Shown here piece after piece: positions 202-57,153 of a DNA stretch of 64,000 bases (position 1 is the stretch's first letter; the number at the start of each line of letters is the position of its first letter). Source of the DNA: Vicia villosa (lineage: Eukaryota; Streptophyta; Magnoliopsida; Fabales; Fabaceae). The position numbers were made by a program, and so were the translations under genes. Below the pieces are notes generated by a model, which ran no database searches, was not told the DNA's origin, and saw only the letters and a list, made by a program, of their open reading frames with translations. The stretch covers positions 8,161,213-8,225,212 of the forward strand of contig NC_081182.1 of the NCBI RefSeq assembly GCF_029867415.1, in the 5' to 3' direction.

Positions 202-3200
202 CTAACGTCTCTTTCTTTTCTTGTTAGGATTGTGTTCTACGCGTCTCTTAACAACGCGGACGGTTGGATTGATCCAAATACCCTCGTTATGATCATTTCT
301 AGTACAAGATTCATTCTCATTTTGATCGTTTCTTGTACAAGATTCAATGCCAACACCAATATCACCTTGATCTTCAATGTTTTCATCAACTATTTTGTTA
401 GATAAAAGCACTATAGACCATTTCGTACTTGTCGGATCATTGACATAGAACACTTGTTTAGCTTGAGAGGCTAGAATGAAAGGCTCATCTTTGTACCCTA
501 CCCTATTGAGATCCACTTGCAAAAATCCTGACTTATCCATTCGTATGCCACTATTATTTTCAACCCACTTGCAACCAAATACAGGAATCTGAAACTTCGC
601 GTAATCAAACACCAAAATGCGCTCGATAACACCAAAATATGACAAATTTGAAAATTTCGGATTTAAGTCATTCGCACTTGATATGTGCATTGCTTCAGCT
701 ACCAAGGTAACACCACTATTTTGCAAAGTACTTTTATCATCCTGTTCTTTGGTATAAAATGTGTATCCATTAATTGCGTATGCGCCATAAGAAAACACAA
801 TTACACTTGGACCATAGGCTAAACATCTCAACCTTTCTGTTACTGAAGCAGGATCTGAACGATACTTTGAATAAATATGATCCCTAAACCACGGTATGAA
901 ACTTTGATTGTGCTCTCGTACTATCCAGTTCTCATTTCTATTTGGATTTAAATCTCGGAGAACAACCTTGTGCATTTCAACATAAGGCTCAACCTCAATC
1001 TCATTGTGCAGAACATACAAGTGTGCTTGATCCCGTTCGACCATTGATACTGTCACAACTTTATTTCCAATTAGCCTTTTTCCTTCTTTTTTTTCGACAA
1101 TATGAGATTTGGGGAGTCCAATTGATTGAACATTTGACAGATATTCAGTACAAAACTCAACCGCTTCTTCAACAACGTATCGTTCGGCAATACAACCCTC
1201 CGGTCGACTTCTGTTTTTCACGTACCCTTTTAATATTTTCATATAACGTTCAGCAGGGTACATCCATCTCATATAAGCTAGTCCGCACAATTGTGTCTCT
1301 TTCACAAGATGAACGACTAGATGAACCATTATGTCAAAAAACGAGGGAGGAAAATACATTTCAAGATCACATAAAGTAACAACTATCTCTTTTTGCAATG
1401 TTGGTAAGATCGCGGGATCGACCACCTTACTGCAAATTGACCTGAAGAAGAAACACAGCTTAGTTATTGCGCTTCTTACTTTTTCTGGCAGAATAGAACG
1501 TATACCTATTGGTAAAAAATGTTCCATTATAACATGGCAATCATGCGTCTTCAAACTCTTTAACTTGAGGTCTTTCATGGACACAAGTCTTCTAATATCT
1601 GAAGAGTAGCCTTCTGGAACTTTAACTTCACTGAGGAACTTACACAATGTTTTCTTCTCCTTTCTAGATAGAGTGTAAACAGCAGGTGGCAGATATGTTC
1701 GTCTTCCTTTCGTCACGGGTCCCAATTCAGTTCTCATTCCCATGTTTACCATGTCCTTCCTTATGTTAAGGCCATCCTTAGACTTTCCTTGTATATTGAG
1801 TAACGTACCTATGACGCTGTCAAATACATTTTTTTCAATATGCATAACATCCAGGAAATGTCTTACGTACAACGACTTCCAATATGGAAGTTCAAAAAAA
1901 ATTGACTTCTTCTTCCACCCACCCTTGACAAGTGAATGTGCAAAAGGCTTGCCAAACTGAGTGCTCATATCTTTCACCTTTTCAAAAATTTGATCACCTG
2001 ACAAAAAAGGCGGGGTTGTACGATGTTCGGCCTTTCCATTGAATGCTTTTCTCCACCCATGGTAGTGATGATTAGAATTTAAGAATCTACGATGGCCGAG
2101 AAAGACATTCTTCTGACAAAGCTCCAATCGTGTCGTATCGGTTTCATCTTCACAAACAGGACACGCCTTTTGACCTTTATTGCTGTACCCGGATAGATTT
2201 CCGTATGCTGGAAAATCATTAATTGTTCCAAACAACATCGCCCTCAAGTTGAAACTTTCCTTCCTATACCCATTGTAAACCTCCACACCGTTCTCCCACA
2301 AAAACTTTAAATCTTCGATTAAGGGTGCCAAGTATACGTCTATGTCATTCCCTGGTTGTTTAGGCCCAGAAATTAGCATAGATAACATCATGTACTTACG
2401 CTTCATACATAGCCACGGAGGTAGGTTATAAATCATAAGAATCACAGGCCATGTGCTATGCGAGATACTTTGAATACCATGCGGATTCATTCCATCAGTA
2501 GACAATGACAACCGAAGGTTTCTTGCTTCTTTTCCAAATTCAGGATAATCAGTATCAACTTTCATCCATTGTGGTGAGTCTGCCGGATGTCGCAACTTTC
2601 CATCAATAATTCTTTCATCTGCATGCCAAGTCAAGTGTCTTGAATCGGTCTCACTACGATACATGCGTCTAAATCTCAGAATTATAGGAAAATACCATAA
2701 GACTTTAGCAGGAGACAACTTTTTCTTATATCGAGGGGCACCACATTTAGGACACTCATTCAACGCTGCATACTCGTTTCAAAACAAAACGCAATCGTTT
2801 GGACATGCATGTATCTTATCATAGCTCATGCCAATAGAGGACAACATCTTTTTGGCTTCATACATTCGATTGGGAAGAACATTATCCTTTGGTAGCATAT
2901 CTTTCCTAAGGGCTAATAACTCTGTGAAACTTTTATCCGACCATCCATTGTCCGCCTTTAAGTTGTACAACTTTAACACCGCAGACAATCTTGTGAATTT
3001 TGAACAACCATCATACAACGGTTTCTCTGCATCGCTTACCAACCTCTCAAACATTTTGGGACAATCCTCAAGATCTTCTTCAAGCGCTTCTGCAATCTCT
3101 TCGACTCGATCGCAATCGTATGTGTCTGTGCAATCGTCGTTTGAAGCATACTTCCTATTACACCTCGACTCAGCATTCCCGTTACTTTTCTCACCATGCA

Positions 3201-3414
3201 TTGTCCAACATGTATAACTTCTATCAATTCCAAACCGTAGTAAATGGGATGCCAACTTATTCCCGTCAACCTTACCCCCATAACAGCAACCCAAGCAAGG
3301 ACACGACATTCGAAGCGGGTCTTCGGAGTGCGCAACCGCAAACTCAACGAATTCCCATACCCCTTTCTCGTACTCTTTCGACAATCGGTTTGAATTCATC
3401 CATGTCTTATCCAT
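202..3414 (-). pseudogene. CACTA tnp2-type transposase, copy 1, one in-frame stop
   Basis: Encodes the catalytic transposase expected to cut and paste the CACTA element in the nucleus. The frame runs from ATG at 3412-3414 to TAG at 202-204 (1071 codons) with one internal TGA at 2779-2781. Copy 2 has CGA (Arg) there, so this looks like a C-to-T change at a CpG. Order of parts: an N-terminal transposase-associated domain with the Cys motif CPCLGC, then the tnp2 domain (start NECPKCGAPRY, core PVCEDETDT and FLDVMHIEKN), then a DUF4218-like region (MVHLVVHLVKE, MRWMYPAERYM), then a DUF4216-like region (FDYAKFQIPVFGCKWV). It ends in a basic KKRKRR tail, probably a nuclear localisation signal. Apart from the stop it looks complete. 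Domain names come from family knowledge, not a search. Confidence 0.88.
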
Positions 3415-4860
3415 GTCTTAATTAAGCTAAACAAATGCTTCTTGGTTTCTCTATCAGGTACTAAGGAATTCTGTCAAGATAGTAAATAGCTATCATCATA
3501 ATAGAATACCTAATTAGAATACCTAATCAGAATACCCGATTTCTTAAAGAAGACATTACCTTATTTCAAGGTAATATAAGTCCACAAACCAAAAAACTGG
3601 TTAAGAGACACTAAATTGATATTAAATAGAACCATAAACAATAAACTATAAGCAGAAAATAACAAACTATAAGCAAGAAGAAAGGGATAGTCACCTGAGT
3701 TAGACTTGATGTGGGAGATGGGTAGGTTTGAATCGGCGTTGTACAAGTAGAAACCAGAGACTTCAAAGTAACTGTAAAATTAAACACACACACACGATGC
3801 AGTTAAATACAAATATCATAAAAGTGAAGGAACTATATGCAAACTGTAGCACAAACTACAATGATTTTAGAAGTAGAAACCAGAGACTTCAAAGTAACTG
3901 TAAAAGTAACTGAACCACAATTAACAGAATAATAATAAACCCACAAAAAAACTCTTTGTTGTTTCAACATAAAAATAACACTTAGATTAAGAATAATATC
4001 GTCATACAAAAGCCTTATTATATAAAATTATGTATGGTTTCATTAAACAACCAAAATATTGAATCAAACAGAAGCCAGAAGCCAGAAGCCAAAAATAACA
4101 CTTAAGTAGAAATTATCAAACCGGATACGCTCTCTATATACACATAAGTAGAAATTATCAAACCAGCTTGCAATTACCCATAACCAAATTCAAAAAATTC
4201 TAACTTCACTCATGTACCACAACCAAATAACCATCCATAAACCCATGAAATTGCCTTACTATAATTTCACCATTACTATAATAACCTTTAACCTTCATCA
4301 CCATTGACATAAACTACACAAATGCATCACAAAACTAGAACTCACATCATCACTAAATAACAAAAACAAAAGAAAAGAGGAAGAGAAATTTTCCAGAATT
4401 CAGAGTTGGATTCAAAATCAAACGAACACATCATCAGAAAATACCTATTACTCATCACTATTTTTTAAACCCCTAATATAGATTTCTATAAAAACAGAAG
4501 CCAGAAGCAATCTAGTTTTCTGAATAAAATACCTATAAACACTAATCTTTCAAATATCAAAAACAGAACTATAAATCGTGTACCTTCGTCTTCTCTTCGT
4601 ATTCGTTTTCTGGGCAGGGTTTCTTCTTCGTTCTAGCTTCGAATTCGTTTTCTGGGCAGGGTTTGTTCTTCGTTCTAGCTTCGTCTTCTCTTCAAATTCA
4701 TTTTCTGGGCGGTTTTGAGGAGTTTTTATGGAGTTTCTATGGAGTTCTGGGAAGCGATGGTTCTTCGTAATGAAGTTCTGGGCAGCGATGGCAGTGAAAG
4801 AAATTAGGGATTATGAAACAGCTATTATTTTGATTTTAAAAATTTTAATTAACGAAACAG
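3415..4860 (-). other. CACTA copy 1 upstream/leader region
   Basis: No gene seen. This lies upstream of the minus-strand transposase. It matches copy 2 (57154-57545) up to about 3817, then the two copies become unrelated. A 33-bp stretch (GTAGAAACCAGAGACTTC...) occurs twice, near 3748 and 3871. Between about 4587 and 4720 a unit of roughly 40 bp containing CGTTTTCTGGGCAGGGTTT is repeated about three times. The promoter of the transposase gene is expected here but no convincing TATA box was fixed. Confidence 0.5.
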
Positions 4861-21303: not shown

Positions 21304-22096
21304 CAAGATCTTGTCAAGACTAGGGCCATCTTAGATTGAGTCTATGTTGTTTCTTTCTTTTCTTTGCATCTGTTTTGTTTCTATGCATCTGATCTTTTCA
21401 TCCTGTACTTCTGTACCCAATGGTTGAACCTTAATGACATCATCTTCTTCCTCCATGTGTTATGTTTTATGCATCTGAATCTTTTTAAATATTCTTTTTG
21501 ATGTTATGACAAAAAGGGGGAGAAGATAAATGATAAATGATTTGATTAAATCTATCAGTTGCTGGGTAACGAGGCTCCCACACATTCACTAACAAGAACT
21601 GCAAGTTCTATATGGTTTAAGTGTTTTGCAGGTACAGAGAAGTGAAGTGAATCTTCAGAAGCAAACACTAGAAGCAAAACCATAAGAAGCGTTATTCTGT
21701 AAAAGGAATAAGCTCTTGGAAACTGAAGCAAGCTGAGTGCTGTCAAGCTTCAGAGATCAGAAGCAAGAAAGAAGAATGAATCAGAAGCACTGATAATAGA
21801 ATTTGAATATCATTGTCTATCCTGCTCTGACAAAATTCTATTTGCTCTGATACATATAATGTTATGGCTCTGATACATTATTTGCTCTGATACATTATTT
21901 CAGCCTATATGGCTCTGATACATATAATGTGTTCAAACATACATTTTATGTTCTAACTCGTTCATGCTGACTTTTGTCGTTTAGTTTTTGTTCTGTAACA
22001 TTTCAGGATGTAGAGATGCTCTGATGATGCTCTGGTACATTCAACAATGTTCTGATACAAATCTAGCATGAAGTGATGTTGGTAGACATTCAAAGT

Positions 22097-22370
22097 TCTG
22101 AAGCTATCCGAGGGAAGCAGAAATCAGAAGATGTGAATGCTCTAAAAGATCCAGAAAACTCAAGTTCTGAAGCTGTCCTGAATGGAAGCAGAAGTCAGAA
22201 GCTGTGAATGTTCTGAAGATCAAAGAAATTCAAGTTCTGAAGCTGTCCACGATGGAAGCAGGAATCAGAAGCTGTGAGTGTTCTAAGGATCTAAAGAAAT
22301 TCAAGTTCTGAAGCTGTCCAATGGAAGCAGAAGTCAGAAGCTATGAATTCTCTGAAGGCAGAAGCTTATA
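22097..22370 (+). repeat. About 70-bp tandem repeat in the SIRE 3' internal region
   Basis: Four imperfect units begin AAGTTCTGAAGCT (about 22098, 22163, 22232, 22304), each with GGAAGCAGAAGTCAGAAGC-like cores. The identical block recurs at about 30101-30374. Frames across it are repeat-derived and not annotated as genes. Confidence 0.8.
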
Positions 22371-22595
22371 TGATCGTCTCTACCGAAATAATCAGGGAAG
22401 TCTTTTATCAAAGTTCTTCGAGTATTTATTTCAGGGGGAGATTATTTATCTCAGGGGGAGATTGTTAATCTCAGGGGGAGACATATTCATATGCTTATGC
22501 TATAGCTGTGTAATTTGTCTTTTGCCGTCTACTCTTTCTGATCGCAAATTCATATCATTTATATATGTTTTTGTCATCATCAAAAAGGGGGAGAT

Positions 22596-23802
22596 TGTTA
22601 GAACAAGATTGGTTCTTATCAATTATCTTAGTTTTGATGATAACAATAATATGAATTTTGCTTAAGATAATATGGTACTCTAATCCAATGCAATTTCCCT
22701 TTCAGGAAATATATAAAGAGTACGCATAATTCAGCGCTCAGAAGTTGTGTCTCAAATGGTTCAGCATGCAACATCAGAACATGGTCTGGCAAGACATCAG
22801 AAGATGGTCGAAGCAGAATCAGAACATGGGTCTATGGAAGCATCAGAAGAACATGAGATCAGAAGCACTGAAGATCAGAAGATGGTATCACGCAACAGAA
22901 GCACTTCAAGATCAGAAGATCAGAAGATGCTATGCACCAAGCTGTTTTGACTCTGATGATATTCAAACGTCGTATTCACAAACATCAGATCAGAAGGAAG
23001 TACAGGTGGCAGACTACGCTGACTGACAAAAGGAACGTTAAAGCTACTAAAGGCAACGTCAGTAGACACAGCGTGAACAAGGCTCGAGGTAGTTGACAAA
23101 AGCGTATAACATTAAATGCAATGCTGTACGGAACACGCAAAGCATTAAATGCACTCAACGGTCATCTTCTCAACGCCTATAAATATGAAGTTCTGATGTG
23201 AATCAAGGTTAACGATTCTGCACCAAAACAACTTATATCAAACTTGCTGAAACGCTGTTCAAATCTAAACTCAGAATCTTCATCTTCATCAAAGCTCACT
23301 ACATTGCTGTTGTAATATTTTAGTGAGATTAAGCTTAAACGATAAGAGAAATATCACAGTTGTGATTATAGCTTTTAAGAAGCATTTGTAAACTCTTGAA
23401 TAGATTACATTAAGTTGTAAGGAACTAGAGTGATCGTGTGATCAGTATACTCTAGGAAGTCTTAGCAGTTGGCTGAGCAGTTTGTAACTAGAGTGATCAG
23501 GTTGATCAGTAGACTCTAGAAAAGTCTTAGAAGTTGTCTAAGCAGTGTTCCTGGAGTGATCAAGTTGTGATCTGTATACTCTGGAAGACTTAGTCGTGGA
23601 CTAAGTGGAAAACCATTGTAATCCGTGCGATTAGTGGATTAAATCCTCAGGTTGAGGTAAATCATCTCTGCGGGGGTGGACTGGAGTAGCTTCGTTAACA
23701 GCGAACCAGGATAAAAATAATTGTGCAATTTATTTTTATCGTCCAAGATTTAAAGTCACACTTATTCAATCCCCCCCTTTCTAAGTGTTTTTCTATCCTT
23801 CA
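22596..23802 (+). repeat. SIRE-like LTR, first copy (5' LTR of the gag-bearing unit)
   Basis: 1207 bp, from TGTTAGAACAAGATTGG to CTATCCTTCA, with TG...CA ends. A polypurine tract AAAAAGGGGGAGAT precedes it and a primer-binding site follows it. Promoter-like CCTATAAATATGAAG lies at about 23177. Frames inside (22745-23026) reflect CAGAAG-rich sequence, not a gene. Confidence 0.92.
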
Positions 23803-23804
23803 AT

Positions 23805-23816
23805 TGGCATCAGAGC
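23805..23816 (+). other. Primer-binding site, initiator Met tRNA type
   Basis: TGGCATCAGAGC, two bases after the LTR. It differs at one position from the complement of the plant initiator Met tRNA 3' end (TGGTATCAGAGC), the usual primer of Ty1-copia elements. Confidence 0.85.
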
Positions 23817-23889: not shown

Positions 23890-25803
23890 ATGGCTGGTGA
23901 AACTCCGACAAATCCACCTGCATCTACATCTGGCTCTGCTGAGCAATACAACGGTAACAATGGTTATACAAGACCGCCGGTATTTGAGGGTGAAAACTTT
24001 GAATACTGGAAAGATAAACTGGAAAGTTACTTTCTTGGTCTAGATGGTGATCTATGGGATCTTCTGATGGATGGTTACAAACATCCGGTAAATGCCAGAG
24101 GCGTAAAGCTGACAAGGCAAGAAATGAATGATGATCAAAAGAAGCATTTCAGGAATCATCATAAATGCAGAACTGTTTTGCTGAATGCTATTTCTCATGT
24201 TGAGTATGAGAAAATATCAAACAGGGAAACAGCCTATGATATATATGAGTCCTTGAAAATGACTCATGAAGGAAATGCTCAAGTCAAGGAGACAAAAGCT
24301 CTTGCCTTAATCCAGAAGTATGAAGCCTTCAAGATGGAGGATGATGAAGACATTGAAAAGATGTTTTCGAGATTTCAAACTCTGACTGCTGGATTGAGAG
24401 TTCTTGACAAAGGATACACCAAGGCTGATCATGTAAAGAAGATCATCAGAAGCTTACCCAGAAGATGGGGTCCGATGGTGACTGCATTCAAGATTGCGAA
24501 GAATCTGAATGAAGTTTCTCTGGAAGAGCTGATCAGTGCCTTGAGAAGTCATGAAATAGAGCTGGACGCAAATGAGCCTCAAAAGAAAGGTAAGTCTATT
24601 GCATTAAAATCAAATATCAAGAAATGCACTAACGCTTTTCAGGCTAGAGAAGAAGATCCTGAAGAATCAGAATCTGAAGAAGAAGATGAACTGTCCATGA
24701 TTTCCAGAAGGGTAAATCAACTCTGGAAGAGCAAGCAAAGGAAGTTCAGAGGCTTCAGAAGTTCAAAGAGATTTGAACATGGAGAATCTTCTGATGACAG
24801 AAGATCTGACAAGAAGAAGGTCATGTGCTATGAATGCAATGAACCAGGACACTTCAGGAATGAATGTCCAAATCTTCAGAAGGAGAATCCCAAGAAGAAG
24901 TTTCATAAGAAGAAAGGTCTTATGGCAACCTGGGATGAGTCAGAAGATGATTCAGAAGATGAGCAGGCTAACTGTGCGCTGATGGCGACAGAAGATGACG
25001 GATCAGAATCTACATCAGAATCAGATTCTGAAGAGGTATTTTCTGAACTTACTAGAGATGAGTTAGCTTTCGGATTAACTGAACTTCTGGAATCCAAGTC
25101 TCAGATTTGTATTAAATACAAAAAGCTGAAAAAGCTATTTGAATTTGAAACAAAGAGGCTTGAATTGGAAAATTCTGAATTGAAAGATAAACTTTTAAAA
25201 TTATCCAATGATGTTGGATCTCCTTCTAATTCAGAAAAATCCACTCCTAATCTAAACCATATTCTGAAAGAATATGATTTAAGTTTCAGGAAGTTCTTAT
25301 CTAGAAGTATTGGCAGAAGTCAGCTAGCTTCTATGATATATGCCGTATCTGGAAACAAAAGAGTTGGCATTGGTTATGAGGGTGAAACCCCATACAAACT
25401 TGAACCTGTCGATGAAATGAAACTCACATACAAGCCATTGTATGATCAGTTCAAGTATGGCCACTCTCATGATATTAGGCACACTTCACATGCACAAAGT
25501 TTTCACATAACACACACCAAGAAGCATGTGACACAACCTAGGAAATATCATGAAACTCATATTAAAAATTATCATGCTGTTCCTCCTATTGCTTATAATG
25601 TTAAACCCAAGTTCAATCAGAACTTGAGAAAATCTAACAAGAAAGGACCCAAGAAGATGTGGGTACCAAAGAAAAAGATCATTTCTTTTGCAGATTCTCT
25701 TGATAACAAAGAAGACAACATTCAACATGACATGACACCTGGACTCAAGTTGCTCTCAACACTTGAAGGGAAGAAAGAGTGTCTTCCAAGTTCTGGTTCT
25801 TAA
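23890..25803 (+). CDS. gag: Gag protein of SIRE/Maximus-like copia element
   Basis: Structural capsid protein that packages element RNA into cytoplasmic particles. 637 codons, uninterrupted. ATG at 23890 follows the PBS by about 75 bp. Residues 31-40 read VFEGENFEYW, the start of the copia gag core, continuing to about residue 220. A CCHC zinc knuckle, CYECNEPGHFRNEC (Cys 313, Cys 316, His 321, Cys 326), would bind RNA. It is followed by an acidic Ser/Glu-rich stretch and a Leu/Lys/Glu coiled-coil-like stretch (about 405-440). Near the C-terminus GPKKMWVPKKK resembles the region just before protease in SIRE-type polyproteins. The frame then ends at TAA (25801-25803) and pol is absent. Confidence 0.9.
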   Translation: MAGETPTNPPASTSGSAEQYNGNNGYTRPPVFEGENFEYWKDKLESYFLGLDGDLWDLLMDGYKHPVNARGVKLTRQEMNDDQKKHFRNHHKCRTVLLNAISHVEYEKISNRETAYDIYESLKMTHEGNAQVKETKALALIQKYEAFKMEDDEDIEKMFSRFQTLTAGLRVLDKGYTKADHVKKIIRSLPRRWGPMVTAFKIAKNLNEVSLEELISALRSHEIELDANEPQKKGKSIALKSNIKKCTNAFQAREEDPEESESEEEDELSMISRRVNQLWKSKQRKFRGFRSSKRFEHGESSDDRRSDKKKVMCYECNEPGHFRNECPNLQKENPKKKFHKKKGLMATWDESEDDSEDEQANCALMATEDDGSESTSESDSEEVFSELTRDELAFGLTELLESKSQICIKYKKLKKLFEFETKRLELENSELKDKLLKLSNDVGSPSNSEKSTPNLNHILKEYDLSFRKFLSRSIGRSQLASMIYAVSGNKRVGIGYEGETPYKLEPVDEMKLTYKPLYDQFKYGHSHDIRHTSHAQSFHITHTKKHVTQPRKYHETHIKNYHAVPPIAYNVKPKFNQNLRKSNKKGPKKMWVPKKKIISFADSLDNKEDNIQHDMTPGLKLLSTLEGKKECLPSSGS

Positions 25804-25892
25804 ATCTGTTGAAGAAACTATGTTTGTAGGAATTCAGAAAAGAAGCTTATTAGTCTTGGAACCATCTATGATGTTTGCCTCTAAGGCTTTGA

Positions 25893-26174
25893 TGTTTCTT
25901 TCTTGAGTATTCTGAATGCTCTATATGCTACAGAATATACAACATTGAAACATTGAGTGTGGACAAATCTATAAACATCTGTTTTGATGATAAACTTGTT
26001 TCTGATGAAACAAAGAGCTTAAGAATTTCTGCAGATACAGTTTTGTCTTATCAGAAGCTGCAGAACAAAGAAGTGAACCTCCAGAAGCTGTGTACATCAG
26101 AAGTAATGGATCAGAAGATCACTCAGACTTATATCAGCACACTTCAGAAGGAGTATTTCCAGAAGAGAAATTAG
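25893..26174 (+). pseudogene. Integrase C-terminal remnant of deleted pol
   Basis: One open stretch reads FFLEYSECSICYRIYN then SVDKSINICFDD. It corresponds to the end of the integrase region in SIRE-type copia proteins (pattern FLGYS..S.AYR.YN...ESINV.FDD). An upstream TGA closes the frame directly before it. This marks the right edge of a large deletion that removed protease, the integrase catalytic core and probably a frame shift point. Reverse transcriptase and RNase H, normally downstream, are also missing; ORF2 lies there instead. The tail to 26174 is CAGAAG-rich. Confidence 0.72.
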
Positions 26175-26437
26175 ATCAATTCTGAAGCAGTAATCAGAAT
26201 TTGAAGGCATAAAGTCTATTCTGAAATTTACAGCTGTCATCTATTATCTGATGGTGAACACGTGTCTGTACGGTTTGTACAAAGCGAGCAGTTGAAAAGA
26301 CGCCGACCTAGGTAACTGTATTAAATCATTTCATTTACCACGTTCTCTCTCCTCACGTCACTCATCATTTAATAAAATTGATTTCCTTTGATTCTGGAAC
26401 TGTTCAATTTATATTTCTTTTTTTTTTTTAAATCCGT

Positions 26438-26596
26438 CTCTATATATGCTTTTCAAATCATATCATACATCTTTTTCGCTCCTTTGTCTCTCTCTCTCCT
26501 TGCATTCTCTCGTTTGAAAAGTTCTTAGCCGTTTTCTAAAACCCTAATCGAAAACCCAGTTCGCTTCTCTTGCTCGTTTTTGGTCATTCTGCATCC
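26438..26596 (+). promoter_or_regulatory. Probable internal promoter and leader of ORF2
   Basis: A TATA-like TATATATG at 26441-26448 is followed by a CT-rich stretch (about 26468-26518, with TCTCTCTCTC) and an AAACCCTAA motif at 26539, ending 150 bp later at the ORF2 ATG in good plant context (ATCCATGGCT). This layout is typical of a plant nuclear gene promoter and 5' leader. That it drives ORF2 is an inference. Confidence 0.5.
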
Positions 26597-29338
26597 ATGG
26601 CTGCCTTCTCATCCCAAAATGCTGAGTCATCTGTTCCTCATCATCTCCCAGAAGAAGCTTTGCAACTTACTCCTGTTGTTGCATGCTCTATTCCCAAGGA
26701 CAAATTAGAAGTTCTATGTGAACTTATTGTTGACTTTGACAACCTTGAAGAACATGGATTTCTTCTTAAAGAAGACATCATCTTTCAAGGATGGACCTCG
26801 TTGTTTGCTGAGTTCGTTGGCCCAGTTTATCCAGATCTTGTCAAGGAGTTCTGGGCACATGCTGTGGTTGCTCCAAAATCAATACTTTCCTTCGTCCATG
26901 GAAAGTTTGTTGTTATTACTGAAAACATCCTAAGAGTGATGTTTGATTTGAAGAACGCGGAAGGAGCTTTTGAAATCGATAAAAGGGAAGATTGGAAAGA
27001 TGTTCTATCCACTCTCTATTCAAATATCAAGAAAACAAAACACGTCAAGGAGTTGAAAGATATCTACAAAATCTGGACAAAGATCATTCTTGGGTGCTTC
27101 TACCATAGGAAAGCGACACATGCCGCTGACTTCATAAACAATGAGCAAAAATATATTCTTTATTGCATTGCCACTCAGAAGAAGGTTGATGTGGTTTACA
27201 TTATCTTCAACCATATGTGGAAAGCAGTAAAGGATTCCAGAAACGCTTTCAGAAAAGAAAATGGTGGAACAATCATTCCTTTTGGCAGAATTATTACAAA
27301 CCTTCTGGTGCATTCCAAGATTGTTGAGAGTCTGGAATCTGAAGGTATTGTGAAAGACCTTGCTGTCACATCTGGGGCTTGTCTGAACGCATTCACTTTA
27401 AAGAGGATGAACGTGATTAAGGCTATCATTAAGACTCCTCAACCTCTTGCTGGAACAACAATCAGAAAAGAGCCAGTTCTAGCTGAATTCAAAACCTTCT
27501 TCAATAATGAGGTACCACAAGTCAGAACGAAGTATCTGAAATCACAAAAAGAGGATAAGAGTCTTAAAGATCAAGACAAAGGTGCTCCTATTAAAGTGAA
27601 TCGTAAGAAGGAGGAAAGGACCAAAAGGAAGTTTGATCATCCTGCTGCTACCACCAAGAAAGAAGTGGTCCCAGAAGAAGTGATTGCAAAGGCTGTTAAG
27701 GCTGTCTCTGCTGATTTTGAGAAGAAAAAGAAGGAAGCTGAGAAAAAGAAGAAGAAGTCAATTAACAATGCTGAAGTTGTTGAAGTTGTTGAGAAGAAGA
27801 AAATCAGAAAAAGGAAGATGATTATTCAAAGCTCAGATGAAGAAAATGTTGCTCAAGAAGCTGAGAATCAACCAGAAGTTCTGGCTTATGTCAGAAGGAA
27901 AGAAATCGCTAGCGGCAAAGCAAAGGTTATTGAAGAGCCGAAGAGTAAGAAGCAGAAAAAGGCTGAGGATGTGGCCAAAGCTTTTCTGAGAGGTTCCAAA
28001 GGTATATGCATCTCTGAACCTGTTTCTGTTCCTGCTGTTAGTTCAGAAGCTGCACCAATAGAGGCTGTCCCTCCACCTGAACCTGAAAAAGCCACATCAG
28101 AATCACCTGTCCTTGTCCATGTTCTCACACCTCCATCTTCTCCTATAACCATTCCTTCCTCTACACCTACCATAGATCCTGTTCTGGATATACCACCTCT
28201 CCAAACTCTCTTTCCATCTCAACCTTCTCCCAATGCCACCTTTGAACATACTCCCCCCATCTCTCAAAACAATCTTTGTGATTCTCCTCTTCCAACCTCT
28301 GCATCACATGAGCAGCTGCTCCGTGATTGCAACTACACTCCCAAGCCTCGTTCTGAAGCTGATGTGGTAGTGTTAGATTCTGATACTGAAGCAGAATCTT
28401 CTTATAGGTTGGATAGAGAACCTCAACCATACTTCACTTCCAACCCTGCCTTTTCAAAAACCCAAGTAAAATTCCGCCCTGTATACTCTATTGGTGTAGT
28501 TTTTGAAAACATAAAGAGGAATCTCAGAAGCATCTTTGATACTCTCAGCATTGCTGAAAGTTCTGGATTGAATGATGTTGCTATGCGGAACTTCTGGAGG
28601 ATCCTTCGCAGAGAATCAGATGCTCTGTTTTTAGAACTTCAGGAAGCCTGTGTAACTGCTGCCCCACGGCCTCGTGGAATTCTGAGGAATTATGAAGACT
28701 TCTGGTTTGCTCGCCTCAGAGGAAGACATCTATTGGAAGAGAAGCCCTTTGTGGATGAAATGGAACAGTTGAGACTGGCTGCTGCAATGGAAGCAAACCC
28801 ATGCAGGGACATGGTTATCTTTATTCCTAAGCACCCTGTTCTGCTTGGAGACTTCAAGACTCTCTTTGACTATCTGCGGGAAAACCCTTCTAAGAAAGAC
28901 CCAAGCTTGGTCATTCCAGAAGTTGTTGACCCACCAGAAGTTGAAGGTCCTTCTGCTCCAAGGAATCTAGTTGCCATTCTTAAGGCACTTGAGAATGGAG
29001 ACTCGGAAATTCCTGCTGCAGAATATGGAGATGCTTCTATGCAAGAAGCAGATGCTGAAGATCATGTTGCTGAATCAGACCCTGTTGAGGAAATCCCAGC
29101 AAATGATACTTCTATGGAAGCTGCAGATCAACATGCCATTCCTGTGGTTGAAAGCGGTGAAGCTTCTTCTGATGAATCTTCTCGTCTGGCAAGGACTCTG
29201 GAAGAAATTCAGAGGAGACAGGATGAGCAAAGCTCACTCAATGAGAAGTATGATGCTTTCATTGAGAGGCAAGAAGGACACAACAACGATGTTAAAAAGA
29301 TGCTGGCCAAGATCTTGTCAAGACTAGGGCCATCTTAG
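26597..29338 (+). CDS. ORF2: plant-transposon-domain protein replacing pol
   Basis: 913 codons, uninterrupted. I chose ATG 26597 because the 27 bases upstream in frame start at a TTG, and ATCCATGGCT is a good plant start context. Residues about 60-280 resemble the 'putative plant transposon protein' domain (GWTSLFAEFVGPVYPDLVKE, FWAHAVV, FVHGKFVVIT, later TIIPFGRIITNLLV). Then a Lys/Glu-rich stretch (about 315-400) with several basic clusters that could be nuclear signals, a Pro/Ser-rich middle, a second folded-looking part (about 640-760), acidic repeats, and a Glu/Gln-rich possible coiled coil at the end (about 865-913). No reverse transcriptase, protease or membrane segment is visible. Function unknown. 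Position after integrase recalls the envelope-like ORF of SIRE elements, but I see no signal peptide or fusion-type segment. Confidence 0.75.
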   Translation: MAAFSSQNAESSVPHHLPEEALQLTPVVACSIPKDKLEVLCELIVDFDNLEEHGFLLKEDIIFQGWTSLFAEFVGPVYPDLVKEFWAHAVVAPKSILSFVHGKFVVITENILRVMFDLKNAEGAFEIDKREDWKDVLSTLYSNIKKTKHVKELKDIYKIWTKIILGCFYHRKATHAADFINNEQKYILYCIATQKKVDVVYIIFNHMWKAVKDSRNAFRKENGGTIIPFGRIITNLLVHSKIVESLESEGIVKDLAVTSGACLNAFTLKRMNVIKAIIKTPQPLAGTTIRKEPVLAEFKTFFNNEVPQVRTKYLKSQKEDKSLKDQDKGAPIKVNRKKEERTKRKFDHPAATTKKEVVPEEVIAKAVKAVSADFEKKKKEAEKKKKKSINNAEVVEVVEKKKIRKRKMIIQSSDEENVAQEAENQPEVLAYVRRKEIASGKAKVIEEPKSKKQKKAEDVAKAFLRGSKGICISEPVSVPAVSSEAAPIEAVPPPEPEKATSESPVLVHVLTPPSSPITIPSSTPTIDPVLDIPPLQTLFPSQPSPNATFEHTPPISQNNLCDSPLPTSASHEQLLRDCNYTPKPRSEADVVVLDSDTEAESSYRLDREPQPYFTSNPAFSKTQVKFRPVYSIGVVFENIKRNLRSIFDTLSIAESSGLNDVAMRNFWRILRRESDALFLELQEACVTAAPRPRGILRNYEDFWFARLRGRHLLEEKPFVDEMEQLRLAAAMEANPCRDMVIFIPKHPVLLGDFKTLFDYLRENPSKKDPSLVIPEVVDPPEVEGPSAPRNLVAILKALENGDSEIPAAEYGDASMQEADAEDHVAESDPVEEIPANDTSMEAADQHAIPVVESGEASSDESSRLARTLEEIQRRQDEQSSLNEKYDAFIERQEGHNNDVKKMLAKILSRLGPS

Positions 29339-30599
29339 ATTGAGTCTATGTTGTTTCTTTCTTTTCTTTGCATCTGTTTTGTTTCTATGCATCTGATCTT
29401 TTCATCCTGTACTTCTGTACCCAATGGTTGAACCTTAATGACATCATCTTCTTCCTCCATGTGTTATGTTTTATGCATCTGAATCTTTTTAAATATTCTT
29501 TTTGATGTTATGACAAAAAGGGGGAGAAGATAAATGATAAATGATTTGATTAAATCTATCAGTTGCTGGGTAACGAGGCTCCCACACATTCACTAACAAG
29601 AACTGCAAGTTCTATATGGTTTAAGTGTTTTGCAGGTACAGAGAAGTGAAGTGAATCTTCAGAAGCAAACACTAGAAGCAAAACCATAAGAAGCGTTATT
29701 CTGTAAAAGGAATAAGCTCTTGGAAACTGAAGCAAGCTGAGTGCTGTCAAGCTTCAGAGATCAGAAGCAAGAAAGAAGAATGAATCAGAAGCACTGATAA
29801 TAGAATTTGAATATCATTGTCTATCCTGCTCTGACAAAATTCTATTTGCTCTGATACATATAATGTTATGGCTCTGATACATTATTTGCTCTGATACATT
29901 ATTTCAGCCTATATGGCTCTGATACATATAATGTGTTCAAACATACATTTTATGTTCTAACTCGTTCATGCTGACTTTTGTCGTTTAGTTTTTGTTCTGT
30001 AACATTTCAGGATGTAGAGATGCTCTGATGATGCTCTGGTACATTCAACAATGTTCTGATACAAATCTAGCATGAAGTGATGTTGGTAGACATTCAAAGT
30101 TCTGAAGCTATCCGAGGGAAGCAGAAATCAGAAGATGTGAATGCTCTAAAAGATCCAGAAAACTCAAGTTCTGAAGCTGTCCTGAATGGAAGCAGAAGTC
30201 AGAAGCTGTGAATGTTCTGAAGATCAAAGAAATTCAAGTTCTGAAGCTGTCCACGATGGAAGCAGGAATCAGAAGCTGTGAGTGTTCTAAGGATCTAAAG
30301 AAATTCAAGTTCTGAAGCTGTCCAATGGAAGCAGAAGTCAGAAGCTATGAATTCTCTGAAGGCAGAAGCTTATATGATCGTCTCTACCGAAATAATCAGG
30401 GAAGTCTTTTATCAAAGTTCTTCGAGTATTTATTTCAGGGGGAGATTATTTATCTCAGGGGGAGATTGTTAATCTCAGGGGGAGACATATTCATATGCTT
30501 ATGCTATAGCTGTGTAATTTGTCTTTTGCCGTCTACTCTTTCTGATCGCAAATTCATATCATTTATATATGTTTTTGTCATCATCAAAAAGGGGGAGAT
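29339..30599 (+). other. SIRE-like 3' internal region with polypurine tracts
   Basis: Non-coding tail after ORF2. AAAAAGGGGGAGAAG (about 29515) resembles a polypurine tract. Three further CAGGGGGAGA repeats occur at about 30437-30485, and the terminal tract AAAAAGGGGGAGAT abuts the LTR at 30599. Identical sequence lies at 21335-22595. The 70-bp repeat block lies in between. Confidence 0.75.
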
Positions 30600-31806
30600 T
30601 GTTAGAACAAGATTGGTTCTTATCAATTATCTTAGTTTTGATGATAACAATAATATGAATTTTGCTTAAGATAATATGGTACTCTAATCCAATGCAATTT
30701 CCCTTTCAGGAAATATATAAAGAGTACGCATAATTCAGCGCTCAGAAGTTGTGTCTCAAATGGTTCAGCATGCAACATCAGAACATGGTCTGGCAAGACA
30801 TCAGAAGATGGTCGAAGCAGAATCAGAACATGGGTCTATGGAAGCATCAGAAGAACATGAGATCAGAAGCACTGAAGATCAGAAGATGGTATCACGCAAC
30901 AGAAGCACTTCAAGATCAGAAGATCAGAAGATGCTATGCACCAAGCTGTTTTGACTCTGATGATATTCAAACGTCGTATTCACAAACATCAGATCAGAAG
31001 GAAGTACAGGTGGCAGACTACGCTGACTGACAAAAGGAACGTTAAAGCTACTAAAGGCAACGTCAGTAGACACAGCGTGAACAAGGCTCGAGGTAGTTGA
31101 CAAAAGCGTATAACATTAAATGCAATGCTGTACGGAACACGCAAAGCATTAAATGCACTCAACGGTCATCTTCTCAACGCCTATAAATATGAAGTTCTGA
31201 TGTGAAGCAAGGTTAACGATTCTGCACCAAAACAACTTATATCAAACTTGCTGAAACGCTGTTCAAATCTAAACTCAGAATCTTCATCTTCATCAAAGCT
31301 CACTACATTGCTGTTGTAATATTTTAGTGAGATTAAGCTTAAACGATAAGAGAAATATCACAGTTGTGATTATAGCTTTTAAGAAGCATTTGTAAACTCT
31401 TGAATAGATTACATTAAGTTGTAAGGAACTAGAGTGATCGTGTGATCAGTATACTCTAGGAAGTCTTAGCAGTTGGCTGAGCAGTTTGTAACTAGAGTGA
31501 TCAGGTTGATCAGTAGACTCTAGAAAAGTCTTAGAAGTTGTCTAAGCAGTGTTCCTGGAGTGATCAAGTTGTGATCTGTATACTCTGGAAGACTTAGTCG
31601 TGGACTAAGTGGAAAACCATTGTAATCCGTGCGATTAGTGGATTAAATCCTCAGGTTGAGGTAAATCATCTCTGCGGGGGTGGACTGGAGTAGCTTCGTT
31701 AACAGCGAACCAGGATAAAAATAATTGTGCAATTTATTTTTATCGTCCAAGATTTAAAGTCACACTTATTCAATCCCCCCCTTTCTAAGTGTTTTTCTAT
31801 CCTTCA
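30600..31806 (+). repeat. SIRE-like LTR, second copy (3' LTR)
   Basis: 1207 bp, same length as the LTR at 22596-23802, with one difference seen by eye (G at 31207, T in the other). TG...CA ends, polypurine tract just before. Flanking DNA resumes at 31807 with TAAAGTGCATAAG. Confidence 0.92.
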
Positions 31807-33189
31807 TAAAGTGCATAAGATAAATGTTAGCCAAACTATGTAGAAGTAGCACCTATATGAGGCCGGTCAACAGCAATTTATGTACCATACATTTTAGAGA
31901 AATGACACAATGTCATCCTCCTAAAACATGTAACACAAGTCAAAACCAAAACAAAGGGATCAAGCACAACGCAAGGAGATTGGTTCATCACTTCAATTAG
32001 TTTCTTTTTGACATCTTGAGACAAACTTATTATCAATCTAAAGTACCTCAAGTGATCAAATGATCATTGGAAGGTAGATTTGAAATGATGAAAGTTCATC
32101 AAGCATCAATATAAACTTAAATGAACAAGATGAATCCATGATCATCCATTTGATCAAAAGCAAAAGAAAGAAAGAAAGAAATAAAGAGAGAAGTAACTGA
32201 ATTGAACCACAATATTGATTCAAGCTATTATCAAGATCAATTACCTCTCTTGGTGCATAAATATGATAAACCTATCATCAACCCAAAGTACCAAAAATGA
32301 TTTAAATAATCATTTAATGATAGGTTTGAATTGATGAAGATTCATGCAAACAAAGTATCACCCAAAGTCCATTGATATTGATGAAACTTTTGATCAAATA
32401 AGTCATGATCCAAGTCAACATAAGTCAAACAATATTTAAATGACAAAAAGAAACAAAATAAAAGTATTAACTGATTTTTAAATGGAAAATAAAGAAAAAA
32501 TACAAATGAAATATCTAAACATCAAATAAAAACTCAGAAAAATCATGGAAGGTCAGAAATAACTCAAAGTACCTTTAAAAAGTTTTAGAGAATTCTTAAA
32601 TGCATGAAAATATTTTTAACCAATTAAAATGCATGAAACATGAGAAAATTATAAGAAAATATCAAAACAAAAAATAAAATTGTGAAAAAATTACACAATG
32701 TGTAAAATAATTTTGTGGATTTTTTGGATGAAAATATGATTTAAAATGGATTTTTGAAAAGAATCAACAAATAAAAAAACAGAAAAAAAAGCTCTCAGAT
32801 CAAGTTGACTGGACAGAGTACGCGCATCCAAGGGATCTAATTAAAAGGATCACGATAGACTTTCATTTAAAACACACTCCAAATCCAATTTGAACGAAAT
32901 TAAAACAATTGTCACGCTCTCGTTGGTTGAGACTCCAAAACACACATGTCACCACCAACACCTCTCCGGACATCTTCTCTGGTGAGCTTGTCACCGGAGT
33001 TTGGCAAATGGTTTGGTGAAGGCACCAAACCAACAATATTGTGACTGTTTCATCAAGGCGAACCCAAATCCATACTCGATTTCCATTTATTGGAAATGAG
33101 CATGGAGAATTTTGAGAAAAACTCAATGAAAACCAAAACACGAAAAGTAAAATTAAATGTCATATACGATTAACCAAAACAAGATAATG
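31807..33189. repeat. LTR-like repeat sequence, possibly the interrupted Ogre LTR
   Basis: No gene. Recurring phrases such as AAAGTACC and GATCAAATGATCATT (about 32040-32300) and GACTGGACAGAGTACGCGCA (about 32808) look like the upstream half of an Ogre/Tat LTR read on the minus strand. That would make it the continuation of 17330-18358 and 21072-21303. This link is an inference. Confidence 0.3.
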
Positions 33190-34020
33190 TATTCTTAAAC
33201 GGGACCTTGATGAAGAAGTCTACATGGAAGAACAACTTGATTTATGGTTGATCATCCAGATTTTGTATGCAAACTCTACAAAGCCTTTTATGCCCTAAAA
33301 CAAGCTCCTTAGTAGTGGATTGAACAACTTTAAGATGATCTTATTCATATAGTATTCAAATATAACAAATGCTACTTCTCCTTATTTATCCTATCTGAAA
33401 ATAAGAAAGTTGTCCACCTTTTACTCTATGTTAATGATATCATCACCATATGTACCTTAGCACACTGACTAATATGCTTGAATGCAAAACTATTTCTACT
33501 TATATGTAATCTATTTGTAGACTTAGTAAGACAAGATCCGACTTATTACTTGATCCTTTTATGTGCATATTAGTTATTGGAGACTTATAATATGCCAATT
33601 TAACTTGACTTGAGGTCTCTTATGAAATGAATGTGGTGTGTCAATTTATGTCTAATCGTACTAAAGACCATTAGGTTGTAGTCAAAAGGATACTTAGGTA
33701 TCTAAAATGAACCATTGGTCATGGCTTACTCTTTCATCCTACCTCTATCACTACACACATTCCTTTGAAGTCCTTTTGTGATGATAACTAGGAAGGTGAT
33801 CCCGATGACATAAGAAGCATATCATGAACTCCATATTATTTTGACCATAACTTGGTCTCATAGTGGTCAAGAAAACAATTGGTTGTAGCTCAGCCTAGTA
33901 TTGAGACTGAATATCGAAGCCTTACACACATGTATCAGTTGAATTTCTTGGGATTCAAAATATCCTTCATGAATTGGGTGTTCCAGTGAAGCCTCTTCTT
34001 GTGCTTTGTTAGTTGTGACA
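33190..34020 (+). pseudogene. Ty1-copia reverse transcriptase/RNase H remnant
   Basis: Shifting frames give the landmarks of copia pol in order: LDEEVYMEEQ (about 33210), an LKQAP-like region (33296-33310), HLLLYVNDIITI (33416-33452, where the catalytic YVDD is now YVND), then RNase H phrases equivalent to CQFM..RTKDH, GTIGHGL, HNLVSWS.KKQLVVA (about 33850-33890) and TEYRSL (about 33908), ending LLHELGVPVKPLL (about 33965-34000). Many stops and frameshifts. An old dead fragment without LTRs nearby. Confidence 0.78.
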
Positions 34021-34059
34021 ATCACCCAGTTGGGTTATTGACTCACAACCCTATCTTAC

Positions 34060-34347
34060 ATATCGACCAAACACATAAAGATTGACTTATTTTTCATGGG
34101 AGAGAAATTTATTTCCAAACAATCAAAACTACGTAAAGTGATACCACAATGGTTCGAAAAGAGCCACAACACTTGACCAACCGATGTGAGGTAAAGGGTT
34201 GTTTTATGTATGATGCTTTTCACCACAGTCGTGCGACAATGATTATATGTCAAGAAGCGCACTAACTATCACAGTGGTTACATCAAACAACCTTTGTGAT
34301 ATGCTTTAAAGAAAATCATTTAACAATGGCTGATCTACACAACCGTT

Positions 34348-36444: not shown

Positions 36445-38742
36445 TCAAACATTTTCCGTTGATGAAGGAAGAAGAGGTTGAATTAGTGATGATTTTCCAT
36501 GATGGCCTGAGGCCCTGATAATGCCGCTATGCTCGGCCGGAGTCGAAGTCGTTGCTGCTAGCTCTCTTGCAAATTTCTTTTCTTCATTTTTACCCCACAA
36601 AACTAGGTACAACCCCACAATGATCAATGCTGCTCCAATGATCCTATAAAATCGCAAATTTGCTTTTGTAACAAAAGGTATATATAAAGAAAGAAAAAAG
36701 TTTCTGCTTTAAACTTTCTTTTGACCCTATGGTACATGGAATCTTTTAGAAAAATTTTCATTCTAATTTCACATGTAAAAAGTTGAATTATAGATAAGTT
36801 TTAAAATTATATATATTAGTGGCTAGCCTTTCTTAGTTGAGTCAGTTCTCACCTAAAGGTACCAACCAAACTGTGCCTTACCTCTTTTGTTCACTTGTTG
36901 TTTTAATAGAGTTCATTTGTCCTTTTCAAAATAGTGATAATTCATCCGTTTCGGACTCAGTATTATTAGTATTTATGTGTCTATGCATGTATTATTAATG
37001 TATGTTTCAAAACACTCTGATAGATGTCTGAGACACGCTGATGTCTGACACTCGTATGACTTATGACGAATAAGTTACAGAAAGATAAGGTAGATAAGAC
37101 GAACCCGCCTAAGTAGAATTCTTCTCCTAAAGCAAGAGAAGCCATGATAGCAACAATAAGAGTTTGAACAGGTTGATATACTGCAACAAAAACAGGTCCT
37201 CCTTTGTCAATGCACCATATCTGTACAGCGAACGCAATTCCTGATGCTACCACTCCCTGCAATATTAAAATCATTAACAACAACAATAATGCATTATTAC
37301 CAACAGCACAACCTACCATTATATATACAACATTATATCTCAAAAGCATGCACATAGTACAGCTTTATCGAAAGTTTACGTGATAAATCACTATAGATTT
37401 ATTGAAGATTGTGATACTAACCCCGTAAAGAATGGTAAAAACTTCAGCACCAGAGGTGAAAATCCAAGCCTGAGAGTTTCTCTCAAAGATCAAAGCAATA
37501 ATGAGGAATTGGATAAGTCCAAAGAAACATGTATAGGAAGTGACAGAGAGACGAGCTGGATACTTCTTAAGGACAGGTGCTTGTAACACCAGCCAACCAG
37601 ACCAAGACAAACAATGTCCTATAAGGTACAAACATCCAAGGGTCCAGTTTTTTCCTTTTGCATCACCTAATGACTCAAACAAACTCTCTTGTATGGTAGT
37701 ATTGTTGTTGTTTAGAGATGGTGGAACTGGACTGTATATTGTTGGACCTTTGTAAAGTGTAATCACTGATGCTCCTGCCACACAGAATATTGTTCCTGCA
37801 ACTTTTCCTATTCCATCCTTTCTGTTCAACCTCACTTGCTCTATTCTGAAAATTGTATGTTTTTAATATAATGTTTTTTTTTCTTAATTTTTTGATGTAA
37901 CTGTAAACAAGTAATTAAGGGCTTAATTAATTAATTAATCAATTACCTGAGTACAACTGCCATGAGAAATGTAATGGCTGGAACTGAGTTTTGTATAGCT
38001 GATGCAAAAGTTGGAGATGTATTGTCCAAACCAAGCAAGTAGAAACCTTGATTGGCTGTAAAACTGTGTAATAAAAAATTTAATCTTTTAATTAAAATTT
38101 TCATAGATTAATTATATACTGAATTAATAATCTCATACCTTTGTTTTTCAACTTATTTATTTTACTATTACAAAACAAAATTGTACTAACAATAAAATTT
38201 TTAAAATTGCGGTCTGAAACCCGCAAGTTTAACCCTAGTATAAAAGATTTTGATGTCTCTGCAACGACATTAAGACCGTAATTCTCATAGTATCTAAGCA
38301 GTAGAGTCAAAATGTTGTAATGGCATCTTTCGTCAATATAAAAGTTTGCGGTATAAATATGGTGCATACCCGATGAGGGCAAGAAGAAAGAAGTGCAGAA
38401 GAAAGTTGAAATTAATAGCTGGCCTTTCCTTCCTGGACAAGAAAATAAACAATGTAACAATTGATTATGTCATGTATTGAAGTTATTAACCTATTATAAA
38501 CTTATGTTAAGGTAATATTATTACTTTTCCAAGAAGTATGCAAATGGAACAAGGAGAAGAAAAGCAAGAAGATTCCGGTAAACTGGAAAAACCAGTTTGC
38601 TAATTCCCATGTTAAGGGCAGCTCTAGAGACCACATGGAAACCAGCGTAACCAACTTGCAGCACCAGCATGGCCCCATGCAGCTGAAACCGTTCTGGTAT
38701 GGAACACCACATTCTCGTAGAAGAACCACCTGAATCAGCCAT
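36445..38742 (-). CDS. WAT1: WAT1-type vacuolar auxin transporter (EamA/MtN21 family), six exons
   Basis: WAT1 (Walls Are Thin 1) is a tonoplast protein that exports auxin from the vacuole and supports secondary wall formation. Exons on the minus strand: 38742-38525, 38432-38370, 38063-37947, 37845-37422, 37256-37105, 36643-36445; all introns are GT...AG and phases fit. Total 1173 bp, 390 residues, close to Arabidopsis WAT1. Landmarks: MADSGGSSTRMWCSIPERFQ, GYAGFHVVSRAALNMGISKL, FTANQGFYLLG, ASVITLYKGPTIYSP, ARLSVTSYTCFFGLIQ, then GGVVASGIAFAVQIWC, QPVQTLIVAIMASLALGEEF, and the C-terminus LLPSSTENV. Two EamA halves with about ten membrane segments are expected. Intact by eye; the only clear host gene here. 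Confidence 0.92.
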
Positions 38743-53908: not shown

Positions 53909-53961
53909 AGATGAGCCTTTCATTCTAGCCTCTCAAGCTAAACAAGTGTTCTATGTCAATG
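53909..53961. repeat. 53-bp inverted duplication inside CACTA copy 2
   Basis: This segment is the reverse complement of 54176-54228, about 215 bp away within the transposase gene. It sits exactly where copy 2 departs from copy 1 and gives the transposase frame a new C-terminus (ending IEHLFSLRG instead of the basic tail). Probably filler DNA copied in during break repair. Confidence 0.9.
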
Positions 53962-56900: not shown

Positions 56901-57153
56901 ACTCGACTCAGCATTCCCGTTACTTTTCTCACCATGCATTGTCCAACATGTATAACTTCTATCAATTCCAAACCGTAGTAAATGGGATGCCAACTTATTC
57001 CCGTCAACCTTACCCCCCATAACAGCAACCCAAGCAAGGACACGGCATTCGAAGCGGGTCTTCGGAGTGCGCAACCGCAAACTCAACGAATTCCCATACC
57101 CCTTTCTCGTACTCTTTCGACAATCGGTTTGAATTCATCCATGTCTTATCCAT
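53925..57153 (-). pseudogene. CACTA tnp2-type transposase, copy 2, damaged
   Basis: Same domain order as copy 1: transposase-associated domain, tnp2 core, DUF4218-like and DUF4216-like regions. ATG equivalent at 57151-57153. Lesions: an extra C in a C run (57013-57018, six against five in copy 1) shifts the frame; TAA at 56739-56741 replaces a Ser codon (TCA in copy 1). The remaining 933-codon open stretch (56726-53925) covers tnp2 and DUF domains uninterrupted, including Arg at the place where copy 1 has a stop. Its end is altered by the inverted duplication, losing the basic KKRKRR tail. Confidence 0.87.

Follow-up and report, generated by a model that had tools for sequence, protein, structure and literature searches.

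A pol-less Sirevirus family in Vicia villosa with a conserved accessory gene, a promoter-like block and a predicted VANC-like fold

Introduction

Several described transposons come close to the system reported here, a Sirevirus (SIRE) element in a 64,000-nt stretch of the Vicia villosa genome (RefSeq GCF_029867415.1, contig NC_081182.1, positions 8,161,213–8,225,212; the whole stretch is called the window). Statements about them refer to excerpts of the cited papers. In wheat, RLG_Quinta is pol-less, has gag and an extra domain of unknown function, and is cross-mobilised by its pol-containing partner RLG_Cereba; primer binding site (PBS) and long terminal repeat (LTR) ends are common to the partners, and recombination was noted (PMC11302176). 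TR-GAG elements are LTR elements with gag and no pol (PMC8704663). In SIRE elements, an extra open reading frame (ORF) after pol, the eORF-3'F or 'env-like' gene, is present in 74% and forms 19 groups that resemble one another little or not at all (PMC6317226). Its role has been called unproven and controversial (PMC3414828), its mode of expression is described as an open matter, and an internal promoter has been proposed, though no clear candidate was named (PMC2829016). An extra ORF said to carry a promoter of its own is the antisense gene23 of Grande (PMC7264820), and an extra ORF (aORF) with PF20167 occurs in sunflower Athila (PMC11728184). VANC21 of VANDAL21 is a DUF1985 protein with a conserved domain beside variable regions, and its element has dense same-strand motifs in non-coding DNA (PMC5735166).

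The vetch element carries gag, PBS, polypurine tract (PPT), LTRs and an accessory ORF, without pol. It is a copia element, whereas the wheat pair is named RLG (Ty3/gypsy), and the cited excerpt mentions neither an own promoter nor loss of an accessory gene in the partner (PMC11302176). TR-GAGs have a single ORF (PMC8704663); the vetch element adds a second, selected ORF and a promoter-like block. It resembles SIRE elements with env-like genes in that the ORF stands after pol in relatives and in its fit to the internal-promoter hypothesis (PMC6317226, PMC2829016, PMC3414828), and differs from those excerpted in that its ORF has no transmembrane segment, the block is conserved and the family is pol-less. 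Athila is Ty3/gypsy, and only partial similarity is given for its aORF (PMC11728184). The likeness to VANC21 (PMC5735166) comes from predicted fold, motif arrays and a conserved domain beside variable regions; no sequence similarity between the two proteins was detected. A literature search by title and start of abstract, with subscription papers mostly outside it and VANC-like retrotransposon proteins not among its subjects, found no description of the present pair.

Copies of the accessory gene and selection

The element in the window belongs to a young Sirevirus family that lacks pol and has been amplified. Its accessory ORF runs from the ATG at 26597 to the stop at 29338 on the forward strand (913 codons; 922 counted from a TTG), and is intact, as an earlier note made from the letters alone had stated. 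Genome searches scored the best candidates only, and their counts are lower bounds biased to similar copies. As a DNA query the ORF matched at 95–100% in 40 of 40 scored places, and a query across the gag–ORF junction spanned its whole 1401 nt at 90–100%, again in 40 of 40. All 30 loci cut from the junction list aligned from gag through the ORF, with L036 split in two by an internal gap and L038 stopping 135 nt before the end. One of them, L009, coincides with the window and was left out, giving a set of the window plus 29 copies. Of these 30 sequences, 28 have an open gag and 23 are open over the first 567 ORF codons. Seven copies other than the window were read to the ORF end, and five keep all 913 codons. 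In a sister subfamily, P0005, the eight sampled copies are all pol-less with the same junction, and stops are absent from 49 of 50 stretches that begin at residue 1 and from 43 of 45 separate C-terminal ones. An LTR pair, gag, multiple copies and absence of pol place the family with semi-autonomous, TR-GAG-like elements.

On substitutions alone, about 5.0 of the 29 copies would be expected to lack stops in the first 567 codons; 22 are open and in frame. Ratios of nonsynonymous to synonymous substitution (dN/dS) were estimated on frame-intact rows, with seven broken ORF rows and two broken gag rows dropped, and came to 0.177 for gag (28 rows; 95% interval 0.13–0.24), 0.418 for the first 567 ORF codons (23 rows; 0.29–0.61) and 0.164 for the PF20167 domain (0.05–0.40). 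Between the window and a diverged pol-containing family, synonymous divergence (dS) over the N-terminal 300 codons exceeds 2 and dN/dS is 0.16–0.20, as computed on the four of 20 loci that are free of stops there. Selection on the ORF, hinted at in the earlier note, is supported by these values. The ORF might instead be a passenger that hitchhikes in an ordinary parasitic TR-GAG derivative: such derivatives occur in many plants (PMC8704663), an overall dN/dS of 0.42 is not strict, and 11 of 12 sampled pol-containing copies manage without the ORF. We consider this improbable, given the low ratio in the domain (0.16), 22 intact copies where five were expected and the stop-free stretches of the sister subfamily (49 of 50).

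Relatives with pol

No integrase, reverse transcriptase (RT) or RNase H follows gag in this copy, which in this departs from a complete copia-type element and is a non-autonomous derivative. The gap between gag (ending at 25803) and the ORF had been read correctly; that the ORF 'replaced pol' had not. Positions 25650–25839 are a decayed stretch, 73% identical to the place where gag ends and protease begins in a pol-containing relative (L061, 1968–2157; protease recognised by eye), and this relic after gag implies that pol was lost by deletion. In the diverged family, whose ORF is 47–50% identical to that of the window over the first 300 codons, RT/RNase H frames lie upstream of the ORF in four of five regions inspected, RVT_2 was confirmed in both loci tested, and the end of pol is visible by eye in 13 of 14 aligned loci. 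The order in these relatives is pol, promoter-like block, ORF. An ORF after pol, in the env-like position, was found in L039, L046, L050, L058 and L079, and in L059 such an ORF is followed by linker and LTR.

Because pol-containing relatives carry the ORF after pol, it is a SIRE 3' accessory ('env-like') gene, or eORF-3'F, retained after deletion of pol and no substitute for it. Relatives with RT/RNase H, L079 among them, hold both ORF and block in the envelope-like position, an arrangement that the earlier note had itself said would mark a known accessory gene. At L043 and L059, the accessory ORF has neither pol nor promoter block upstream; unrelated AT-rich DNA joins about 14 nt 5' of the ATG, and linker and LTR follow.

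The block upstream of the accessory gene

The block between spacer and ORF (26226–26596) holds CACGTG at 26259, ACGTCA at 26355, TATATA at 26441, a CT-rich leader at about 26470–26510 and AAACCCTAA at 26539; the last three had been listed earlier and are present. Over 120–270 nt it is 70–80% identical to the ORF-upstream region in 17 of 20 diverged-family loci, although synonymous sites of the ORF are saturated between the same families. Conservation peaks at GAACACGTG, GCAGTTG, CCTAGGTAACTG, ACGTCA and AAAACCCTAA; the stretches separating these peaks are weakly conserved. A TATA-like motif was found in 30/30 window-type and 7/8 P0005-type copies (37/38 pol-less copies together), in 16/18 pol-containing copies with the ORF and in 0/7 pol-containing copies without it; for the telobox the figures are 30/30, 8/8 (38/38), 16/18 and 1/7. 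These tallies used a fixed search interval (L060 has TTTAAATAC just outside it) and omit two of 20 ORF-bearing pol-containing copies that lack the anchor, and the counts are not independent, the copies being related.

The block is probably the promoter of the ORF. Another reading is that the ORF is translated from genomic RNA after splicing or by readthrough and that the block has a part in RNA processing or packaging; stop-codon suppression in SIRE1 and the splicing reported for Bagy2 offer precedents (PMC2829016, PMC7264820). TATA, CT leader and telobox stand at matching positions, and the near-absence of TATA and telobox from ORF-less copies likewise makes this reading rather unlikely. Of the host-like transcription unit that had been proposed, a promoter-like block kept across diverged elements stands, and its acquisition by this element does not.

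The LTR was tried as the origin of the putative internal promoter and rejected, the best local matches being no better than the best of 300 shuffles. The motif AACATTAAATGCAA(T) occurs both in the window LTR (offset 513–527, about 70 nt before the LTR TATA) and in the internal block of L039/L046, upstream of its TATA; it is suggestive of an element common to LTR and block, though within the best of 300 shuffles.

The accessory protein and the TCAGAAG arrays

The plant-transposon-type domain noted earlier is PF20167 (Transposase_32), matched at aa 66–241 with E 1.7e-18. Lys-rich stretches were also borne out, for example at aa 376–387; for the proposed C-terminal coiled coil there is a long helix at aa 859–909, predicted with modest confidence. 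Hydropathy revealed no transmembrane stretch (highest 19-residue mean 1.49). The role proposed for SIRE1, that of an envelope-like protein in cell-to-cell transfer, would suit the position of the ORF, which equals that of the SIRE 3' ORF, and such genes are said to have transmembrane and coiled-coil domains (PMC3414828); with no transmembrane stretch and the predicted fold of a DNA-binding protein, it is very improbable here.

The AlphaFold model of the full 913 aa was too poor (predicted local distance difference test, pLDDT, 36), and the structure search used the domain model alone. VANC21 (listed as PDB entry 9lnj) was the single outstanding fold match of the predicted PF20167-domain model. 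A sequence profile run against PDB chains gave no VANC among four matches up to E 10, the domain model had no match at E 0.001 in a viral structure library, and no relative of the ORF was found in viral contigs. Elsewhere in the same genome there are three matches to DUF1985, a domain of VANC proteins (C1:52813876, C970:347668 and C415:520639). The accessory proteins P0037 and P0043 have an N-terminal domain only about 34% identical to that of the window ORF, but by eye they almost match P0005 at the C-terminus, which may reflect modular exchange inside the accessory ORF.

TCAGAAG occurs in forward orientation four times in the spacer, seven times in the linker and eight times in the 3' LTR, with no reverse copy in these 2890 nt. 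None lies in the promoter block, and five lie in the remaining 53.5 kb of the window. ATCAGAAG exceeds dinucleotide shuffles as well (14 versus about 0.5). The linker and the part of the LTR available from the partner family have 14 forward and no reverse copies, and the 1.5 kb after the ORF in seven other pol-less copies has 8–12 forward and none reverse. The repeats are partly tandem, and these strand counts are not independent. Dense one-orientation motif arrays in non-coding element DNA are a VANC-like feature, and the arrays are a candidate target of the protein.

Some other accessory role for the protein, in nuclear import, integration targeting or RNA packaging and with no anti-silencing, would agree with its Lys-rich stretches and C-terminal helix, with a structure that yields a fold alone, and with Quinta, a pol-less element with gag and an unknown domain (PMC11302176). 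Set against VANC21 as the only outstanding fold match and against one-strand arrays that are VANC-like, it is an unlikely alternative, if a serious one. VANC-like action of the accessory protein, judged from predicted fold and analogy, comes a little short of an even chance.

Exchange with the partner family

An RT–RNase H query from L058 gave at least 130 matches, and 129 of the 130 listed are stop-free in the matched stretch. The first copy opened, with its two ends at L060 and L061, proved to be an autonomous partner with LTR and gag in common with the window: gag is 93.5% identical, the 5' leader 97.6%, the linker 89–95% and the LTR 94% (741 nt compared). In L061, a protease-like/pol-like frame at 1946–2401 opens in a different phase and overlaps the gag end, so that partner pol may be expressed by frameshifting or some other bypass. 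Between pol and linker, L060 keeps a short remnant in which 38 residues resemble the ORF C-terminus at 39%. Twelve pol-containing copies were reached through RT (L060, six chosen after it, then five, with L079 and L080 chosen for unusual pol frame lengths), and in 11 of them no PF20167 ORF lies downstream of RT (L060, L062–L067, L076–L078 and L080). The ends of an L060 post-pol query lie no more than 1269 nt apart in 39 of 40 places, the query itself having no ORF and being biased against ORF-bearing copies. Strict complementarity of the two families was considered and is ruled out by L079. At the place of the accessory gene, L062 has a 131-aa mini-ORF with KKRK (624–1019), perhaps common to other copies judging from match spans, and in L063, L064, L065 and L067 another segment, about 370–545 nt long, stands there.

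In the pol-less copies, gag is a mosaic of tracts, some window-like and others partner-like. In 23 of 29 copies there are fewer runs than in shuffles at p<0.01, and the minimum number of recombination events (Rm) is 34; incompatible site pairs make up 0.172 of nearby pairs versus 0.469 overall, with none of 1000 permutations as low. A single pol-containing gag represented the partner, and the exchange may partly be among pol-less lineages. In six rows (window, L011, L020, L030, L033 and L038), gag dS to the partner is 0.044–0.125, while the relic at 25661–25838 has diverged by 0.34–0.41 in the window, a rough comparison, since the relic either does not code or is a diverged coding stretch. The mosaics would be most simply explained by repeated template switches between RNAs packaged together, ahead of gene conversion, and the mosaic gag suggests mobilisation by the pol-containing partner. 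The two families are very probably a non-autonomous pair, and loss of the ORF from most of the few close pol-containing elements sampled hints at a division of labour.

A possible division of labour

In the arrangement that we propose, pol-containing elements would supply protease, integrase and RT in trans, and the pol-less element would contribute Gag, which is common to both families. Co-packaging of RNAs from both, with template switching, would keep the flanks alike. The accessory protein would be translated from its own mRNA, started at the internal promoter. It might then, as the least certain step, bind the same-strand TCAGAAG arrays in LTR, linker and spacer of both families, to judge from the modelled fold and the VANC analogy, and such binding could counter DNA methylation in a VANC-like manner, so that the pol-less element would contribute derepression to the pair. 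Since an anti-silencing protein would act on both families, it could be kept by one family only. VANDAL elements are Mutator-like DNA transposons. If the proposal holds, LTR retrotransposons would join DNA transposons as users of sequence-specific anti-silencing, a function could be assigned to one or more groups of SIRE 'env-like' genes, and complementary losses in two interbreeding families would exemplify retrotransposon division of labour in a plant genome. The conserved block and the fold link to an anti-silencing protein make the role and expression of SIRE env-like genes directly testable.

Several observations weigh against the proposal. The VANC21 match is weak by Foldseek (E 0.037; TM-score 0.44/0.35; own superposition 7.6 Å), a common fold does not establish function, and helical folds can yield middling Z scores. 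DUF1985 was not matched in the ORF protein by sequence, and a profile compared with one Vicia DUF1985 stretch gave no match, a weak test with a single sequence on one side. The Lys/Pro-rich part of the protein is weakly constrained (dN/dS 0.562; 0.36–0.90). In the block, the G-box core is intact in 13/30 window-type, 6/8 P0005-type, 13/18 ORF-bearing and 0/7 ORF-less pol-containing copies, and ACGTCA is present in 30/30, 4/8 and 11/18, yet also in 4/7 ORF-less copies, which makes both motifs less constant than TATA and telobox. TCAGAAG is enriched in gag too (7 versus 1.13 in shuffles; five forward, two reverse), and L079, one of the 12 pol-containing copies, has the ORF, at 61% identity.

On balance, a semi-autonomous element contributing a putative anti-silencing factor is the best overall explanation, and we rate it about evenly between right and wrong. 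The full two-component Sirevirus, in which one family provides the enzymes and the other a VANC-fold anti-silencing protein with its own pol II promoter, acting in trans on common arrays, is offered tentatively, as somewhat improbable in all its parts. With DUF1985 unmatched, the vetch protein is not filed as a VANC; the hypothesis is that it works like one.

Structure of the element and surrounding sequence

All features of the element lie on the forward strand. The 5' LTR (22596–23802; ends TGTTAGAAC...CTTCA) is identical to the 3' LTR (30600–31806) at 1206 of 1207 positions. The PBS TGGCATCAGAGC (23805–23816) is of the tRNA-Met type. The gag ORF (23890–25803) encodes 637 aa with PF14223 and a zinc knuckle, and is followed by the spacer (25804–26225). 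The linker (29339–30599) has repeats about 69 nt apart and five PPT octamers (29519, 30437, 30457, 30477 and 30590). The terminal PPT, AGGGGGAG plus AT, occupies 30590–30599, its octamer starting exactly 10 nt 5' of the 3' LTR. This spacing, the PPT repeats, the AT/TG attachment site at 30598–30601 and an inverted repeat around the terminal PPT (30575–30589 versus 30636–30650, 14/15 complementary by eye) agree with the described hallmarks of Sireviruses, the octamer 10 nt before the 3' LTR included (PMC2829016), and the SIRE-like identity given earlier holds.

Upstream of the 5' LTR, 21304–22595 duplicates the last 31 nt of the ORF, the linker and the PPT, identical to 29308–30599 at 1292 of 1292 positions; LTR and duplicate together differ once in 2499 nt. 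The two outer boundaries of the identical repeat show no target-site duplication. The duplicate is probably the remnant of an adjoining LTR-sharing tandem copy. Because the identical repeat extends past the LTR, LTR identity is a poor clock here: the recent movement claimed earlier agrees with the single LTR difference, which by itself is unreliable for dating, and the copy is young on any reading of the sequence. Family members also occur in pairs about 8.0–8.4 kb apart (C3:28881662/28889646, 7984 nt; C1403:94333/102766; C1172:39887/48192; C4:4758749/4766859), a spacing that suggests recurrent LTR-sharing tandems in pol-less and pol-containing families alike.

What by eye appears to be a decayed copia reverse transcriptase adjoins the element at 33150–34200, and minus-strand ORFs at 36981–37835 appear by eye to be pieces of an EamA/WAT1-type transporter gene. 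Positions 222–3817 and 53960–57545 are 98% identical copies of what by eye resembles a CACTA-type transposase gene; their large open frames are on the minus strand (202–3414 and 53925–56726).

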